Part shown: one piece after another, positions 2,067 through 8,419 of the stretch | Numbering within the stretch: the stretch's first letter is position 1 | Layout of the letters: every line of letters starts with the position of its first letter | Source: an uncultured Acidobacteriia bacterium | GTDB lineage: Bacteria > Acidobacteriota > Terriglobia > Bryobacterales > Bryobacteraceae | Reading direction: 5' to 3' | NCBI GenBank assembly: GCA_903907865.1 | Contig: CAIVPR010000136.1 | Span: 1-34,514 of the forward strand | DNA: 34,514 nt | Made by a program: the position numbers and the translations under genes | The notes under the pieces: model-generated | Told to the model about the DNA's origin: nothing | The model's database searches: none | The model's input: only the letters and a program-made list of their open reading frames with translations

Positions 2067-2636
2067 CGGGTACATTGCTTTCCAGAAGGCTATTTTGGTG
2101 TGCTGGTGGCGGACTTGGACTTCATCGGCATAAACGATTTCGTGATGGCCCACATCGTTTACAGCGGCCCCAAGGATCCCAAGCGGGTCAGAAGAGTGGA
2201 ACAGAACCTCCACGCATTGGCGCGGGAGTGGAACGTAGACAAGGCTCCCGAGCAGTTTCTCGCCAATGAGTTGTCCGCCTGCACGCTGGATAAGCCCTGC
2301 GTGCCCGAAGGTGGGGCCGGATGGCTCGGGTACGGGGAGGCGAAAACCGAGCCCTGCGGGGAGGAAATCTCGTTTACGGTGCAGGGCAAAGCTTCGGAAG
2401 GCAATGGTACCTCGCTCGATTTGGACGCTGCGGACCTAAAAAGCGAGTGTTCCAACGTCGAGTTCAAGTGGAGCTTCGGGGACGGCAAGAGCGCGATCAC
2501 AACAAAGCCGACCGTCACCCACGAGTATGATGCCGGGGGCAAGCTCTACGCCGTGTCCGCGACGGCAAGATGCCGCCGCCAGTTCACTGTCTGCGAAGGT
2601 CCAACCGCCTCCGCCAGATTCCCCCTCAAACCTTGA
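2067..2636 (+). pseudogene. 3' remnant of a PKD-domain protein gene, 5' end lost at the IS110 element
   Basis: The reading frame that ends at TGA 2634-2636 looks coding from about 2067. Upstream it only continues as an antisense shadow of the transposase. If translated from the first internal ATG (2145) it would give about 163 residues. The last third resembles a PKD beta-sandwich, with the FKWSFGDG strand-loop followed by a VTHEYDAGG segment, as in extracellular or secreted proteins. The upstream part (GYFGVLVADLDF) has no assigned family. Several Cys residues (ACTLDKPC, TEPCGEE, SECSN, CRRQFTVC) would suit an extracytoplasmic location. It ends 17 bases before the sigma-factor ATG, so it was probably the first gene of that operon. 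The 5' portion is not found on the other side of the IS within the window. Confidence 0.55.
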
Positions 2637-2641
2637 ACCGC

Positions 2642-2649
2642 AAAGGAGG
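2642..2649 (+). promoter_or_regulatory. Strong Shine-Dalgarno of the ECF sigma factor
   Basis: AAAGGAGG lies four bases before ATG 2654. It fixes this start over a longer open frame that begins at 2570 inside the preceding gene. Confidence 0.8.
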
Positions 2650-2653
2650 ATTC

Positions 2654-3316
2654 ATGCCCCAAGACTTCATGCACAAAGACTTTGCCTCGTTGAACTTGGA
2701 CGATACCGACGCGCTGATCGCCGCCGTCCGTAACGGGGACATGGTCGCTAGGAACGAGTTGATGGAGCGCATCTACCCCGAGCTCCGCAACTTGGCCAAA
2801 GGGCTTATGGCCAATGAGCGTCGCGACCACACGCTCGGTATGACCGGCAGTGCGCTTGTGAACCTGCTTTGGCTGCGACTCCTAGCCCCCCAGGACGCGG
2901 AGTCGCCCGACAAGCCGCGGGAGGATCTGGGGATCCTCCAAAGCCGCCAGCACCTGATGGGCATCGCCGTCCGCAACATGCGCAAGATCTTGGTGGACTA
3001 CTCCCGGATGTCGAGGGCAAAGAAGCGGCCCAAGAAGCACGACAAGGTGGATGTCGCGCGGCTCAACTCCCTCGGCGAATCCATGGCCTCCGCCGACGCC
3101 GACGCGCTGGACATAAGCGAGGCTCTCAAGCTGTTGGAGCCGATTCAGCCCGAATCCGCGCGCGCGCTGGAGCTCAAGTACTTCGCCGGCCTGACCAACG
3201 AGGAAGGCGCTTTGGCAATGGGTATTCCCTTGATCCGCTTCCGGCGGCGCTGCGAGGCTGGCCTCGACTTCTTGCGCAACGAACTGGGCAAAAATGAAGG
3301 GAGGAGACTGCGCTGA
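2654..3316 (+). CDS. ECF-like RNA polymerase sigma factor (PF07638 type)
   Basis: A 220-residue sigma-70-family regulator of the ECF-like group common in Acidobacteria and Planctomycetes. Region 2 is marked by DTDALIAAVRNGD near the N-terminus, the HTLGMTGSALVNLLWLRLL segment and the RNMRKILVDYSRMSRAKKR segment typical of the family. Region 4 follows, with LELKYFAGLTNEEGALAMGIP as the helix-turn-helix. There is no anti-sigma gene next to it. Sigma factors of this kind are often found beside Ser/Thr kinases (ECF groups such as ECF43 and ECF59-62), and here a kinase gene lies 3.5 kb away at the same locus. The start at 2654 has an excellent ribosome binding site. The stop overlaps the likely start region of the next gene, so translation is probably coupled. 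Its target promoters are unknown. Confidence 0.9.
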   Translation: MPQDFMHKDFASLNLDDTDALIAAVRNGDMVARNELMERIYPELRNLAKGLMANERRDHTLGMTGSALVNLLWLRLLAPQDAESPDKPREDLGILQSRQHLMGIAVRNMRKILVDYSRMSRAKKRPKKHDKVDVARLNSLGESMASADADALDISEALKLLEPIQPESARALELKYFAGLTNEEGALAMGIPLIRFRRRCEAGLDFLRNELGKNEGRRLR

Positions 3317-3339: not shown

Positions 3340-4878
3340 GTGCCCCCAATTTGGCTCGATTTGGATGCCGCCGAGTCGGATTTAGTCGCTGGAACGCCTC
3401 TCGAATCCAAGTCTTTTCTCCAAATCGACGAGGTGGAGTTCAGGGTTCGAACAATAGCTTCAGAACCGCCTGGTGAACTTTCTTCGGAACCGGAGATCCG
3501 GATTGAACGGGAACCGTTCCAGCGGCCCCCGCTCTCACTCCTGGGTCACAATCCGCCCGCAGGTTTGCTGAGTGATGTGGTGCGCTTGGTTTGCCACGTT
3601 CTCCAAGCCTTCGCCAGCGGCCGCGTGGTCGTCATTGCCGCGGAACCAGGGGAATTCGGTGCCGGAGCCACCATCTTCACCCAAGTTGAATGCGCGCGAC
3701 GGTGCTTGCCTCTCACCTTTCGCCGGACTTGCATCGCCAAGGTCTTCACGCGCACCCCAATTCGTTATCTCGAAGCCGGGGCAAATCTGCTCGCCGTTCC
3801 GAGTGATACCGTGGAGTCCTTGGTCCGTTCAGGCACGGACATGGTGGTCCTCGACTTCCTTTTGGAACGGGTCGACGGGCAGGCAGTGGCATCGGCAGCG
3901 GAAAAGTATGGAAGGTTCGTTCGCGACTGCCTGGCCAAGTACCAAACGATCGGGGAGCAATGGCTGGATCGCGCAGACCACATCTTCCTCCACCGCAGGC
4001 TTCCCTCGGACGTCGAGATCGAGCTCGCCTGCGACCTGTCGGATGCGCCCTTGGGTTCCGAACTCCATCTCCGCTCCGAATGGCGCGGGCTGCCCCTCAA
4101 ATGGAGCTCGCTGATTGGCCCTCCGGATTTGCGGCGGATGCATCCCTCCACGCTCGTGGAACTCGCTTTGAACCGGAACTGGTCGCCGGGCTGGGACACG
4201 CTCCGCCCGCTTGCTGTCGACGAACTGGTCCGCAGTACGTGCGGGTGGTCCAAGTTGAAGGCGTTCGGCTTCGATCACTATCTGCGAGAGGACGCGCCGG
4301 CGACGGTGAATCTGCTCCTGGTAACTGGGTCTTGGGGCGGATGGAGAGATGAAACCGGCTGTTCGCCGCAGGAATTGCGGGAGGCGGCCATAGCGTGGAT
4401 GGAAAGTCCGCACTGGGATACAAGCGAGCCATTTCTCGAGGATTGGATTTGCTGCGCCCGTGATTATCTCCAAGACGCAGCGCTGGTCGGGGGGGCGGGC
4501 TCGGATCAGGGCAGGCCGGGACCCGTGATTGAATGGATCGAATCGCGACAAGCGCGGGCATGGAGCGACCTGCTCAAGGGAAATCCTGAGCCGACTGAAC
4601 CCGTACCTGAGGGGCAACTAATCCACGGGCCCCAAGCTCGAATCTTGCCGGCAGTCCAAGACGCTGATATCGGCGTTGCCGATGGGAGTAAGGATGTCGG
4701 CGCTGACGACGATGCCGGGATGGCTGCACGAGAACTACACTCGACGCTCTCGGAGGACCCGAGTCCCGAAGGCGAGACCGCAGGTCCGTTCCACCCTGGC
4801 TGGGTGCGGATGGCCATCGCTGCGCTGATTGGGTTCATCGCCGGAGTGCTCGCGACACTACTATGGAAACGCCACTGA
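3340..4878 (+). CDS. Tail-anchored cytoplasmic protein of unknown function, sigma/vWA operon
   Basis: A 512-residue protein with no N-terminal signal. One hydrophobic segment lies at the extreme C-terminus (about residues 490-508, WVRMAIAALIGFIAGVLATLLWKRH), so the bulk should be cytoplasmic and tethered to the inner membrane. I do not recognise a known enzyme. The block around residues 95-155 (a Cys-rich ARRCLPLTFRR stretch, then FTRTPIRYLEAGANLLAVP) is faintly reminiscent of GTPase-associated GAP1-like proteins of vWA-linked conflict systems; this is a weak impression only. Residues 400-480 are acidic, Pro-rich linker. The GTG at 3340 is the first conventional start, but a CTG at 3313 sits about seven bases behind a good GGGAGGAG and overlaps the sigma-factor stop, so the true start may be there. 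The end overlaps the vWA gene by 16 bases. Confidence 0.7.
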   Translation: MPPIWLDLDAAESDLVAGTPLESKSFLQIDEVEFRVRTIASEPPGELSSEPEIRIEREPFQRPPLSLLGHNPPAGLLSDVVRLVCHVLQAFASGRVVVIAAEPGEFGAGATIFTQVECARRCLPLTFRRTCIAKVFTRTPIRYLEAGANLLAVPSDTVESLVRSGTDMVVLDFLLERVDGQAVASAAEKYGRFVRDCLAKYQTIGEQWLDRADHIFLHRRLPSDVEIELACDLSDAPLGSELHLRSEWRGLPLKWSSLIGPPDLRRMHPSTLVELALNRNWSPGWDTLRPLAVDELVRSTCGWSKLKAFGFDHYLREDAPATVNLLLVTGSWGGWRDETGCSPQELREAAIAWMESPHWDTSEPFLEDWICCARDYLQDAALVGGAGSDQGRPGPVIEWIESRQARAWSDLLKGNPEPTEPVPEGQLIHGPQARILPAVQDADIGVADGSKDVGADDDAGMAARELHSTLSEDPSPEGETAGPFHPGWVRMAIAALIGFIAGVLATLLWKRH

Positions 4879-5993
4879 CCATTGACATAACGAATATCAA
4901 CAACGGTTCGCCGGGCCTCCTCCACTTGGAACTGCCGACCGCCATGAACATCCAGTCCCTTCCCGGCGCCGGCGGCCTGCAACTCGTCTTCCGCTCGGAG
5001 GGCGAGATCCGGCTTGTCGCCGAAATCGTGACTGCCGATCAGGAGATACTGCGCGTGGCGGTGTCCGAAACCCAAGGTGGACAACTGCGGGTTGAAAGCA
5101 CTGGCCGATCGGCCCAGTACTCCGGCGTCCAAGTCCGCCCCGCGCCGTCGATCCTGGCGAGCGGGGCCAACATGTTGGACGTGTACTTCCTGATCGACGC
5201 CACAACCCGCCAAACAGCCCCGGAACGCGTAGGGCTCACCAGCCTGGTCGGAGACCCCGCGTGGCCCGCGCTGGCCGAAAAGCTTGCCGCTATTCCGGGT
5301 GCAATGGCGTCGGCACCCGTCGATCCGGCGTCCGGCACCCCCACGTCAGGCACTCCCCCGTCAAGCACAGACATCCGCTGCGGAATCGCTGCGTTTGCCG
5401 ATTTCGACAGTTGGACGCTCCACCCCGCGGCTCCCGACGCCCGCATGTTGCGCCCTTTCCGAGCCGCTGACATCACTACCACTCTCAGCTCCATTCCGGT
5501 GCCCAACGTCGGTGACTATGTGGACGCCCTCGCCGAGGGACTGGATGCCGCATTGCATGTCGGCTGGCGTGAGGACGCACGCAAGCTTCTCGTGGTGCTG
5601 GGCGACTCCCCCGGGCACTCGGTTCTCGCGGCGGTTCCGCGACACGCAAGCCGCAACGCGCACCTACGGCAAGCCGTTGCTGGAGGCAGCCTGCGTTTGG
5701 CGGATTCGCGGATCCGGCGTCGCGACGTGCATGAGTGCGCCGAACAGCTCCACGCCCATGGAATCGAAATCGCCACGCTATTCTTTGAGGATGGCGCACG
5801 AAGTATCGAGATGTCCAGCGCCGCCGGCCAGCAACTGGTGGACCATACCCGTCGGCAATACCGGGAATTGGCATCGCTGCCGCAATGGGCTTTTCGGATC
5901 GACGGGTCCAGCGACTTGGCCGAACTTGGAGCCGTCCTCAAAGCCCGCCCGAGTGTGATCGGCCGCGGTTTCTGTCCCGGATTCGCTATTTGA
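4863..5993 (+). CDS. vWA-like domain protein with degenerate MIDAS
   Basis: A 376-residue protein without signal peptide or membrane segment, probably cytoplasmic. Residues 1-100 form a beta-rich region of unknown family. A von Willebrand A-like Rossmann domain follows: MLDVYFLIDATTRQT (strand 1, Asp112) occupies the MIDAS loop position, then IRCGIAAFADFD, a VGDYVDALAEGLDAAL helix, KLLVVLGDSPGHS and GIEIATLFF. The canonical DxSxS metal motif reads D-A-T-T-R, so metal binding may be altered. The Pro/Ser/Thr-rich insertion around residues 150-170 (repeats of SGTP) is probably a flexible loop. It is the last gene of the operon and overlaps the preceding gene by 16 bases. Its 3' end overlaps the converging receptor gene by 8 bases. 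In vWA-centred systems such proteins usually scaffold partner assemblies. Confidence 0.78.
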   Translation: METPLTIDITNINNGSPGLLHLELPTAMNIQSLPGAGGLQLVFRSEGEIRLVAEIVTADQEILRVAVSETQGGQLRVESTGRSAQYSGVQVRPAPSILASGANMLDVYFLIDATTRQTAPERVGLTSLVGDPAWPALAEKLAAIPGAMASAPVDPASGTPTSGTPPSSTDIRCGIAAFADFDSWTLHPAAPDARMLRPFRAADITTTLSSIPVPNVGDYVDALAEGLDAALHVGWREDARKLLVVLGDSPGHSVLAAVPRHASRNAHLRQAVAGGSLRLADSRIRRRDVHECAEQLHAHGIEIATLFFEDGARSIEMSSAAGQQLVDHTRRQYRELASLPQWAFRIDGSSDLAELGAVLKARPSVIGRGFCPGFAI

Positions 5994-6882
5994 CCCAGAT
6001 CTCCGCCCGGCGGTTTTCCTGCCGGGCCGCCTCGCTGTTGGCGGTGTTAATCTGCAGCGCTTCCGCGAAACCCTCCACGTAGACCGGCTTGACTAGAACC
6101 TGCTCCAACTGCCGTGCCACCGCCTGTGCCCGAGCCAGCGAAAGCTCGTAGTTGCTCTTGGACCTCACGTTGTCCGCGAAGCCTAACACCAGAAATTGGG
6201 TTCCCGGGTTCTTGATGGCATAGTTGCGCACCCGGTCGATGTTGTCCTGGGCGAAGTTGTCCAGAACCAACGCGTCCCTGCCGCTCCCGAAGTGGAAACT
6301 CAGATCCAGTTGCTTGGCCCCTTCGACCGCGCGCCTGAGGGCTGTCGGCTCCGTATCGGTAACCCCGAATTCGTGCGCGCTCGCGATCAGGGGGACGAAC
6401 CCCTTGGTTTCAGCCGCGTGCTGGCCTGCCTCGCTGGCCGCGAATTCGTAGAGTTCGCGTGCGTCGGCGGACACGTTGGCGTTGTTGCAGAGGTACAGGC
6501 GCCGCGTAATGGGGTAGCGCTCCGTCGTGATCGCGCTTTCGTTTGGGACCACGGGGGGCACGTCGCTGGTCGGTGCCAGAGGGACCACCCGCACACCAGT
6601 TGTCAGGGTGGAACTCACAAATCCGATGGAGCTAGGCGTCGCCGCAACTTTGCGGACGAGGTCCAGACTACCCTCCAAGGCGAACCCGGCGGGCACGTTC
6701 GCCAACTCCACCTTCTTGTGGTCCGCGTCGGTACCGCAGACCTTCTCAATAAAGAAATCCCTCGTGCCGGACGGGCTTTTCCGTACCACAGGCAGGATGG
6801 GACCGGCCAACGGCACGCCCAGCGCCGACCAATACGCCGTCCGGGGGCTGACCGCGCAGAAGTTATGACGCACCTGGTCCAA
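5986..6882 (-). CDS. PstS-like C-terminal half plus OmpA domain; probably the 3' part of the upstream kinase gene
   Basis: 298 residues as read from a TTG at 6882. Residues 1-190 match the second half of the phosphate-binding-protein module found in 'PBP/OmpA' periplasmic proteins: a V-(R)KSPSGTRDFF ligand-loop segment, then IGFVSSTLTTG, and ITTERYPITRRLYLCNN. The end is an OmpA-C peptidoglycan-binding domain with the LDLSFHFGSG strand, FLVLGFADN, the NYELSLARAQAVARQL helix and the terminal QENRRAEIWVK motif. The missing first half of the module is exactly the C-terminal end of the upstream kinase frame, with a 20-base overlap (6863-6882). The TTG start therefore lies in mid-domain and is not a natural start. 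A +1 shift near CATGACAATTGGACC (about 6880-6892) would restore one protein. As a separate product it would lack a signal peptide and half its fold. Confidence 0.85.
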   Translation of the reverse strand: MDQVRHNFCAVSPRTAYWSALGVPLAGPILPVVRKSPSGTRDFFIEKVCGTDADHKKVELANVPAGFALEGSLDLVRKVAATPSSIGFVSSTLTTGVRVVPLAPTSDVPPVVPNESAITTERYPITRRLYLCNNANVSADARELYEFAASEAGQHAAETKGFVPLIASAHEFGVTDTEPTALRRAVEGAKQLDLSFHFGSGRDALVLDNFAQDNIDRVRNYAIKNPGTQFLVLGFADNVRSKSNYELSLARAQAVARQLEQVLVKPVYVEGFAEALQINTANSEAARQENRRAEIWVK

Positions 6883-8359
6883 TTGTCATGGAGAAACCGG
6901 GTGCCGACTCTGGAACTACGATGGCGATGCCGTCGAGCCCGATGACGTGTTCGGACGACCGCGAGGACAGATCCTCAAGACCGGGGTATGTCTTGCCCTC
7001 GTCCAACTTGACCCGCCGACTGGCCATGCCGATATCGCACGTTTTGGCCGCGAGGCATTCGAACGCCACGCCGGTTGAGGGCGGATAGATCTGGATCATG
7101 CGCCGACGGTGGAACAAAGAGAAATCTCCGGCGCACTCCTTCATCTTCTCGGTGGGCTTCTCCTGCATCTTCCCGTCCTTATCCTTGTATGAATAAGGCC
7201 GCACAACATCGACGCACGTAACATGCGACAGGCCCTTCGATTCGAGGAAAGCGAGGGACACGGCCGGGGCAAGATCGTCGCCCACCGACGATGATCCATA
7301 TACACGGGTCGTAACCGGGGTCAGGTACAACCAAAGCGCCGCCGCCAAGGCTGCGACAAGCGCGGAATCGGCGAATCCCAACAGGAACTGCCAACTCCGG
7401 TTCGGGCGGGTACCGCCAGTGGCCGCCGCGGACGCGTCCTGCTTCCGCTCCGTGTATTGCGGGCGTTCGGTCTGCGGCATGCGTTCCGTCAGCGGCCAAG
7501 TTGGTTGGGGCGGTGTGTAAGGAGGTTGAGTCGGAATGGGAATGGTCGGCGGCAAAGGCCGGGGCTGGGTTTCGGCCGGCCCAGTCGCCGCAGTGTGCGG
7601 CTGGGTTTTGCCAACCGCTTGCAGCAAGGCTTCCATCACCTCCGCGCAGGAAGAATACCGCGCTTCCGGATCTTTTGCCAAGCACGTCATCACGACCCGG
7701 TCCAGTCCCTTGGGCGCAAGCGGATTGAGTTTGGTCGGCGTCTTCGGAACCAGTTCCAGATGGGCTCGGGACGGGTCCGGTTCCCTTTGGAACGGCGTGG
7801 CCCCGCTGATCATCTCGTACAGGACGCAGCCGAAGCTGTAGATGTCGGCGCGACCGTCGATCAGCCCGTGGGAGAGTTGCTCCGGGCTGACGTACTGCAG
7901 GGTCAGGTATTGGACCCCCAGTGTCAGGCGCTCCTTGCCCTCAACTAGCGCTATGCCGAAGTCGATCAGGATCGGCCTGCCTGTCCCCTGTTCGATCAAG
8001 ATGTTCTGCGGCTTCACGTCCCGGTGGTACACGCCAGCATCATGGGCCGCCTGGAGTGCCGACAGCACCCCCCTGCTGATCTCCAAGATACGCTCGACCG
8101 TGAGGGACGCGCGCTCGGACGCCATGACTTCCGCCAGATTGCGTCCCTCGACATACTTCATCACCAGCCCGGGCGGGTCGTTGAACGAGTCAATTGCGGG
8201 AACGATATTCTCGTGGTCCAATTTCGCGACATGCACTTCGCACTCGCGGACAAACCGCGTCCGCAGGTCGTTGTCCGCCATCGAGTCCTTGCGTAGAAAT
8301 TTGATCGCAAAGCGCGGCGCGTCGTCGCCAACGTGTCGGGCCCTCCAAACTTCCGACAT
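6863..8359 (-). CDS. Membrane Ser/Thr protein kinase with truncated extracytoplasmic PstS-like domain
   Basis: From ATG 8359 there are 498 residues. Kinase core: invariant Lys20 (FAIKFLRK), catalytic HRDVKPQN (112-118), DFG (133-135), YVSPEQL and the GRADIYSFGCVLYEM helix; this is a Hanks-type kinase. A Pro/Thr-rich juxtamembrane linker (250-320) leads to one transmembrane helix (about 324-347). Then comes the first half of a phosphate-binding-protein module: VYGSSSVGDDLAPA, TCDIGMASRRVK, and HVIGLDGIAIVV just before the frame ends. ATG 8359 lies inside the glycine-rich loop (I-V-G-G-G-M-S-E-V-W), so it cannot be the natural start. The in-frame codons upstream extend to an ATG at 8419 but are interrupted by TAA as codon 2. 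With the downstream frame the intact protein would be about 810 residues: cytoplasmic kinase, membrane helix, periplasmic PBP and OmpA domains. Ligand binding outside probably controls the kinase inside. Confidence 0.88.
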   Translation of the reverse strand: MSEVWRARHVGDDAPRFAIKFLRKDSMADNDLRTRFVRECEVHVAKLDHENIVPAIDSFNDPPGLVMKYVEGRNLAEVMASERASLTVERILEISRGVLSALQAAHDAGVYHRDVKPQNILIEQGTGRPILIDFGIALVEGKERLTLGVQYLTLQYVSPEQLSHGLIDGRADIYSFGCVLYEMISGATPFQREPDPSRAHLELVPKTPTKLNPLAPKGLDRVVMTCLAKDPEARYSSCAEVMEALLQAVGKTQPHTAATGPAETQPRPLPPTIPIPTQPPYTPPQPTWPLTERMPQTERPQYTERKQDASAAATGGTRPNRSWQFLLGFADSALVAALAAALWLYLTPVTTRVYGSSSVGDDLAPAVSLAFLESKGLSHVTCVDVVRPYSYKDKDGKMQEKPTEKMKECAGDFSLFHRRRMIQIYPPSTGVAFECLAAKTCDIGMASRRVKLDEGKTYPGLEDLSSRSSEHVIGLDGIAIVVPESAPGFSMTIGPGAS

Positions 8360-8413
8360 CCCTCCGCCGACAATTTCCTCGACTAGGACATAGCCTTGGA
8401 CCTTTTCACCTTT

Positions 8414-8419
8414 TTACAT
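8414..8419 (-). other. ATG-TAA: natural kinase start followed at once by a stop
   Basis: On the minus strand the expected start of the kinase is ATG (8419-8417), with a weak GGGGTGG six bases upstream. The next codon is TAA (8416-8414). The 18 codons after it (M-x-KGEKVQGYVLVEEIVGGG) are in frame with the kinase and complete its glycine loop. One base change (for example AAA to TAA) would explain it. Confidence 0.6.

Follow-up and report, generated by a model that had tools for sequence, protein, structure and literature searches.

The minus strand of the window, a stretch of 34,514 nucleotides from an uncultured Acidobacteriia bacterium of the family Bryobacteraceae (assembly GCA_903907865.1, contig CAIVPR010000136.1), carries between positions 5986 and 8419 the two pieces of what was a single receptor-kinase gene. 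The ancestral gene encoded one chain consisting of a Hanks-type kinase, a membrane helix, a PstS-like substrate-binding module and an OmpA domain, which is preserved intact in relatives. In the window, it is interrupted twice, by a stop codon that immediately follows the start codon and, within the PstS-like module, by a +1 change of frame. The split-gene signal at 5986–8419 is far beyond chance, and real decay is the most likely cause of the two breaks. The initial annotation of this region, made from the sequence alone, had placed a +1 shift near 6880, which holds, and had overlooked the break right after the start codon.

As assembled, the gene opens with an ATG (8419–8417) followed in frame by a TAA (8416–8414), so that codon 2 is a stop and the first break spans 8414–8419. 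The first open frame (6863–8413, 516 codons) runs from the codon after this stop to a TAA at 6865–6863, and encodes the kinase, a proline-rich linker, the membrane helix and the first half of the PstS-like module. The kinase domain (7634–8383) matches PF00069 at 140.6–142.9 bits, with a Pfam E value of 7.8e-41 for the first piece alone, and retains the Lys, Glu, HRD, DFG and APE motifs, which identifies it as Hanks-type. A single membrane helix is predicted at 7328–7384 (residues 344–362 of the first piece, hydropathy maximum 1.94). The half-module that follows (6881–7306) matches positions 1–137 of our module profile with an E value of 3.6e-30, while no Pfam match to it is listed for the first piece. 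The second open frame (5986–6882, 298 amino acids) holds the rest of the module and the OmpA domain; it opens mid-module, and by eye no hydrophobic stretch is present at its start. Its half of the periplasmic binding protein (PBP) module scores 20.4 bits in Pfam, below the cut-off of 27. The OmpA-like domain, of the peptidoglycan-binding type (6010–6267), matches PF00691 at 33.8 bits against a cut-off of 27.2 (E value 4.5e-8) and retains the motif Asp and Arg of this family. Of the 295 positions of the NCBIfam PstS model TIGR02136, 53–127 align with the first piece and 151–295 with the second; both scores lie far under the cut-off of the model.

The second break maps to 6879–6892 by comparison of the frames, by alignment with an intact homologue and by the guanine–cytosine content at third codon positions. 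In blocks of 150 bases, the strongest phase is 0 for eight of the ten blocks that precede 6920 and 1 for all six from 6919 on. The intact homologue, locus L010 of genome G015, is 49% and 48% identical to the two pieces, which abut on it, and the residues after the TAA at 8416–8414 align with its N-terminus. When the OmpA half was first used as query against 61 genomes, 23 of them gave some match, most of the listed matches being an OmpA domain alone. In G015 and G004, both from the genus of the window, the matches fall inside open frames of 784 and 788 codons; the corresponding proteins of 773 and 774 amino acids contain Pkinase, PBP_like_2 and OmpA in a single chain, each above its Pfam cut-off. 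The same three domains exceed their cut-offs in the single chain of L089, and a membrane helix is also predicted in L010, L011 and L089. The proposal of the initial annotation that the two frames are one split gene, ordered as kinase, one helix, PBP module and OmpA domain, is thereby borne out by full-length homologues in the same genus and by an alignment that crosses the break. Relatives that are always split alike, which would have spoken for two genes, were not seen: in the loci examined, only the kinase frame of the window ends half a module in and away from a contig end. Although two open frames are visible, their origin as unrelated neighbours abutting by chance was rejected, because the two halves fit a single module in the right order as well as one chain (L010); the intact relatives already refute this explanation, whose probability we consider negligible.

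In the window copy, the two breaks keep kinase, helix, PBP module and OmpA domain from sharing one open frame. The next in-frame ATG after the TAA falls at 8359, inside the glycine-rich loop of the kinase, and in-frame ATG, GTG and TTG codons are all absent between the two. With a stop at codon 2 and the next start inside this loop, a working receptor is unlikely as assembled, and neither piece should yield one. A second copy of the gene was not found in the genome at an E value of 0.001. The receptor is probably not made in this organism.

The window makes up the whole of contig C136 in a draft genome (G000) of 7.5 Mb and 186 contigs, in which PF00069 has 38 matches. Three other Hanks kinase genes in it look broken as well (L142, L143 and L144), namely on C84, on C97 near 87 kb and on C97 near 109 kb (frames read by eye), the last with several frame changes. 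According to gene and lesion counts that were merged by eye and are rough, 7 to 9 lesions fall in 4 of 34 or 35 kinase genes, an arrangement that random scatter would give with a probability of about 0.8% to 0.01%; a run with 33 genes gave the same order of probability. The clustering of the lesions in few kinase genes favours decay. In G015, one clear case of a broken kinase gene was found among 32 matches. Other observations tell against decay. Patches of poor coverage could cluster errors equally, the coding bias and the motif residues are still intact on both sides of the shift, and among the MacB-type permeases taken as a control, 1 of about 20 genes looks split, so that broken genes are not special to kinases. 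The MacB-type gene concerned (G000:C78:193504-195433) appears as frames of 272 and 657 codons.

The kept bias and motifs, the broken control gene and the 186-contig state of the draft speak for a gene that is intact in the organism, with both breaks as sequencing or assembly errors. The kept bias and motifs fit very recent decay or assembly error equally. The error explanation, however, needs two independent errors within 2.4 kb and is at odds with the concentration of kinase lesions in few genes, and we regard it as possible but rather doubtful; of the two, real decay is the more probable. A third explanation, in which the split is functional, through a programmed frameshift or as two separate stable proteins, draws on the open and well-kept frames on either side of the break. 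It conflicts with the absence of the split from every kinase-bearing relative examined, with a second frame that begins mid-module and with the lack of a slippery run at the site (by eye), and a programmed shift would leave the stop after the start codon unexplained. Programmed frameshifting was rejected on account of the unshifted kinase-bearing relatives and this unexplained stop, and a functional split as a whole is highly improbable. Real decay of one receptor-kinase gene thus remains the explanation that we favour.

The architecture is not unique to the genome of the window. The module profile (A2) was run against 237 genomes of its family and, among the matches listed, best first, gave full-length matches in at least six genomes besides the broken own copy; in three of these six (G004, G015 and G065) a kinase lies in the same frame as the module. 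At the level of the phylum, 122 of 396 genomes have a module match at 1e-40, mostly to the PBP part and within frames some 300 codons long, and among 30 loci fetched from this set, two besides the own copy run from the PBP part into OmpA, with a kinase solely in the own copy. A scan of GTDB contigs covered the best 80 of 362 relatives and its counts are lower bounds: 138 loci included at least 74 frames with PBP and OmpA under a loose rule, at least 16 of them also with a kinase and at least 13 of those distinct. Pfam, applied to ten of these kinase chains that come from named records, placed Pkinase and PBP_like_2 above their cut-offs in all ten and OmpA in eight, the domain scoring under the cut-off of 27.2 in L081 (21.3) and L083 (27.1). 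Of 76 genomes in the family to which the Geobacter record L067 belongs, 9 have the module at 1e-90, always with an in-frame kinase, two of the nine chains being cut by contig ends. The family of Minicystis rosea has the module in 6 of 108 genomes, five with an in-frame kinase and a sixth cut by a contig end inside the module. Six of the 14 kinase chains from these two family sets are loci counted before. Altogether there are at least 21 distinct kinase-bearing chains, two of them cut by contig ends and none split at the place seen in the window, in Acidobacteriota, Myxococcota, Verrucomicrobiota and Thermodesulfobacteriota. The kinase may have been fused to the PBP-OmpA part more than once, independently: a quick tree (62 rows, duplicates dropped) requires seven changes of the kinase label, but approximately unbiased tests on 61 rows, with one long row left out, rejected neither the grouping of all kinase rows in one clade (p 0.425) nor that of the four acidobacterial rows (p 0.708). 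Among the papers listed in literature searches, we recognised none as describing the combination of kinase, PstS-like and OmpA domains.

Several chains lacking the kinase were noted alongside. In nine loci (L012, L059, L060, L061, L063, L066, L079, L109 and L130) the PBP-OmpA part lies behind a helix and a short, four-cysteine, zinc-ribbon-like segment, to which Pfam gave no name in the four proteins scanned. L012 belongs to G010, from the genus of the window, and has the module behind this segment without the kinase, while at L079 two kinase frames lie near the gene, unfused. A kinase-less PBP-OmpA gene from Lysobacteraceae (L113) has a split module too, at profile positions 258–263 as against 137–145 in the window.

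In a comparison of the module profile with the PDB, PstS chains were matched at 1.2e-33, and the OmpA domains of proteins such as YiaD and OprF at around 1e-15. The module of L089 was modelled with a predicted local distance difference test score (pLDDT) of 95.6 and a predicted template-modelling score (pTM) of 0.92, and a Foldseek search with this model returned phosphate receptors (1twy, 4q8r, 4jwo and 4gd5) as the best hits, with OmpA domains lower in the list. A PstS-like fold is therefore predicted, from relatives above the Pfam cut-off and from the fold match of the L089 model. The residues of an R-x-x-x-S-G-T anion motif are kept in 40, 42, 42 and 42 of 43 members, and are also found in the second piece of the window; one Glu column and one Asp column are kept in all 43, and a Thr in the first loop in 39. 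The window pieces keep the conserved sensor residues, except that Ser replaces the first-loop Thr. We take these motif and related residues to be phosphate contacts by their presumed roles in E. coli PstS. In the OmpA domain, the Asp and Arg of the family motif are each kept in 40 of 43 members and presumably contact peptidoglycan, as we assume from A. baumannii OmpA.

The conserved residues point to phosphate or a similar anion as the putative ligand. PBP folds are reused for many different ligands, and the PstS-like domain of an otherwise real family might bind another ligand or a partner protein. In favour of this alternative, E. coli PstS has an Asp (presumably Asp56) at the position where 42 of 43 members of the present family have Arg. 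On the other hand, the closest solved relatives are named phosphate-binding proteins, one of them (4gd5) with phosphate bound according to its title, and both PDB sequences aligned with the module profile likewise read SR at that site. Another ligand, or a partner protein, is a serious contender, though one we would not bet on.

The best PDB sequence match of the L010 kinase is PknB, and the structures closest to the full L089 model (pLDDT 82.2, pTM 0.57) are the kinases PknB, PknA and PknE. The Asp of the HRD motif is kept in 7 of 13 relatives (three from the family of the window, two Myxococcota and two Verrucomicrobiota) and lost in the other six, which comprise five from Geobacter, Geobacteraceae or Desulfuromonadaceae and L114. 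The DFG Asp is also absent from L081, L083 and L114. The motif reads HRG in all nine chains of the Geobacter family set and HRD in all five of the Minicystis set. From these residues, the Geobacter-family chains (L177–L185, L067, L081, L083 and L091) are likely pseudokinase receptors.

The gene neighbourhoods differ among lineages. The intact gene in G065 (L141) is accompanied by two more kinases, by an FHA protein with a double zinc ribbon and by a PP2C phosphatase, and that in G004 (L140) by two more kinases, an FHA protein and two genes resembling neighbours of L141. At two Geobacter loci, a GGDEF-EAL protein is encoded directly upstream of the chain. These proteins, at L067:943-4038 and L091:344-3763, are PAS-GGDEF-EAL proteins, that of L091 ending in a low-molecular-weight phosphatase domain; a 325-residue protein that Pfam does not match is encoded after the chain at both L081:6224-7198 and L083:6065-7039. 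Around the window gene and L010, blastp at 1e-4 against the two phospho-clusters found no kinase, FHA or PP2C neighbours, and the window and G015 have no common neighbours besides the receptor at the same threshold. The window and G004 loci have related extracytoplasmic function (ECF) sigma factors (32% identity, blastp 1e-4). The missing kinase, FHA and PP2C neighbours at the window gene and L010 and the variation of neighbours by lineage count against the role proposed below, and the variation also tells against a single fixed pathway.

In the window, the ECF sigma factor (2570–3316, identified with Pfam) is followed downstream by two overlapping plus-strand genes (3340–4878 and 4863–5993), for neither of which Pfam or NCBIfam gave a match at the thresholds applied. 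The first encodes a protein with a helix-like stretch at its end. The second is a convergent neighbour outside the receptor; its end and that of the receptor gene overlap. In G010, the gene after the zinc-ribbon form (L012:2399-3736) has no name from Pfam; by eye, its product is similar to the first part of a contractile tail sheath protein.

In the intact relatives, the kinase would be cytoplasmic behind the single helix and the PstS-like domain periplasmic, where it would close on phosphate or a similar anion, with the OmpA domain tethering the receptor to peptidoglycan. The bound state may alter the pairing and activity of the kinase; the FHA protein near two relatives could then act as reader, and the PP2C phosphatase near one as off-switch. 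The likely role is that of a receptor anchored to peptidoglycan, with phosphate or a similar anion in the periplasm as the putative ligand that it reads. We tentatively propose that kinase-PstS-OmpA chains form an undescribed class of receptor kinases in at least four phyla, peptidoglycan-anchored anion sensors that would drive Ser/Thr phosphorylation, with a pseudokinase branch in Geobacteraceae that may signal by binding alone. The interest rests in this family, whose receptor kinases combine a sensor of the PstS type with an OmpA anchor. To our knowledge, few ligands of bacterial receptor Ser/Thr kinases have been identified, and an outer part with a well-understood small-molecule-binding fold yields a directly testable ligand hypothesis. 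The OmpA tail suggests a reason for the location at the cell wall, and the Geobacteraceae branch raises the question of the role of a receptor without catalysis.

The PASTA receptor kinases (PknB, StkP and PrkC) likewise have a cytoplasmic Hanks kinase, a single helix and an envelope-facing domain. Their outer domain touches peptidoglycan (PMC6213207); the same article names PASTA and propeller sensors, and its main text mentions neither OmpA nor PstS. The outer part of the chains described here differs in being a PstS-like module and an OmpA domain, and no PASTA family is among the Pfam matches listed for the window and the relatives scanned. The NCBIfam model PknB_PASTA_kin covers mainly the kinase part, the window piece scoring 241 bits against a cut-off of 450. 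In the PpkA/PppA/Fha threonine phosphorylation pathway of type VI secretion, a Ser/Thr kinase has PP2C and FHA partners, as found near some relatives, whereas the sensor domain of the kinase-PBP-OmpA chains is different; in the neighbours scanned, which covered part of the genes in short stretches, Pfam named no secretion-system genes. The PstS family (TIGR02136 and PF12849) has the fold and the anion-motif residues in common with the module, which in the present chains is instead tethered by a membrane helix on one side and an OmpA domain on the other and scores at most 154.4 against the TIGR02136 cut-off of 206.6 in the relatives scanned. The kinase-less PstS/OmpA fusions contain the same PBP and OmpA module, and differ at the N-terminus, where by eye a signal-peptide-like stretch, the zinc-ribbon-like segment with a helix, or another sequence takes the place of the kinase.

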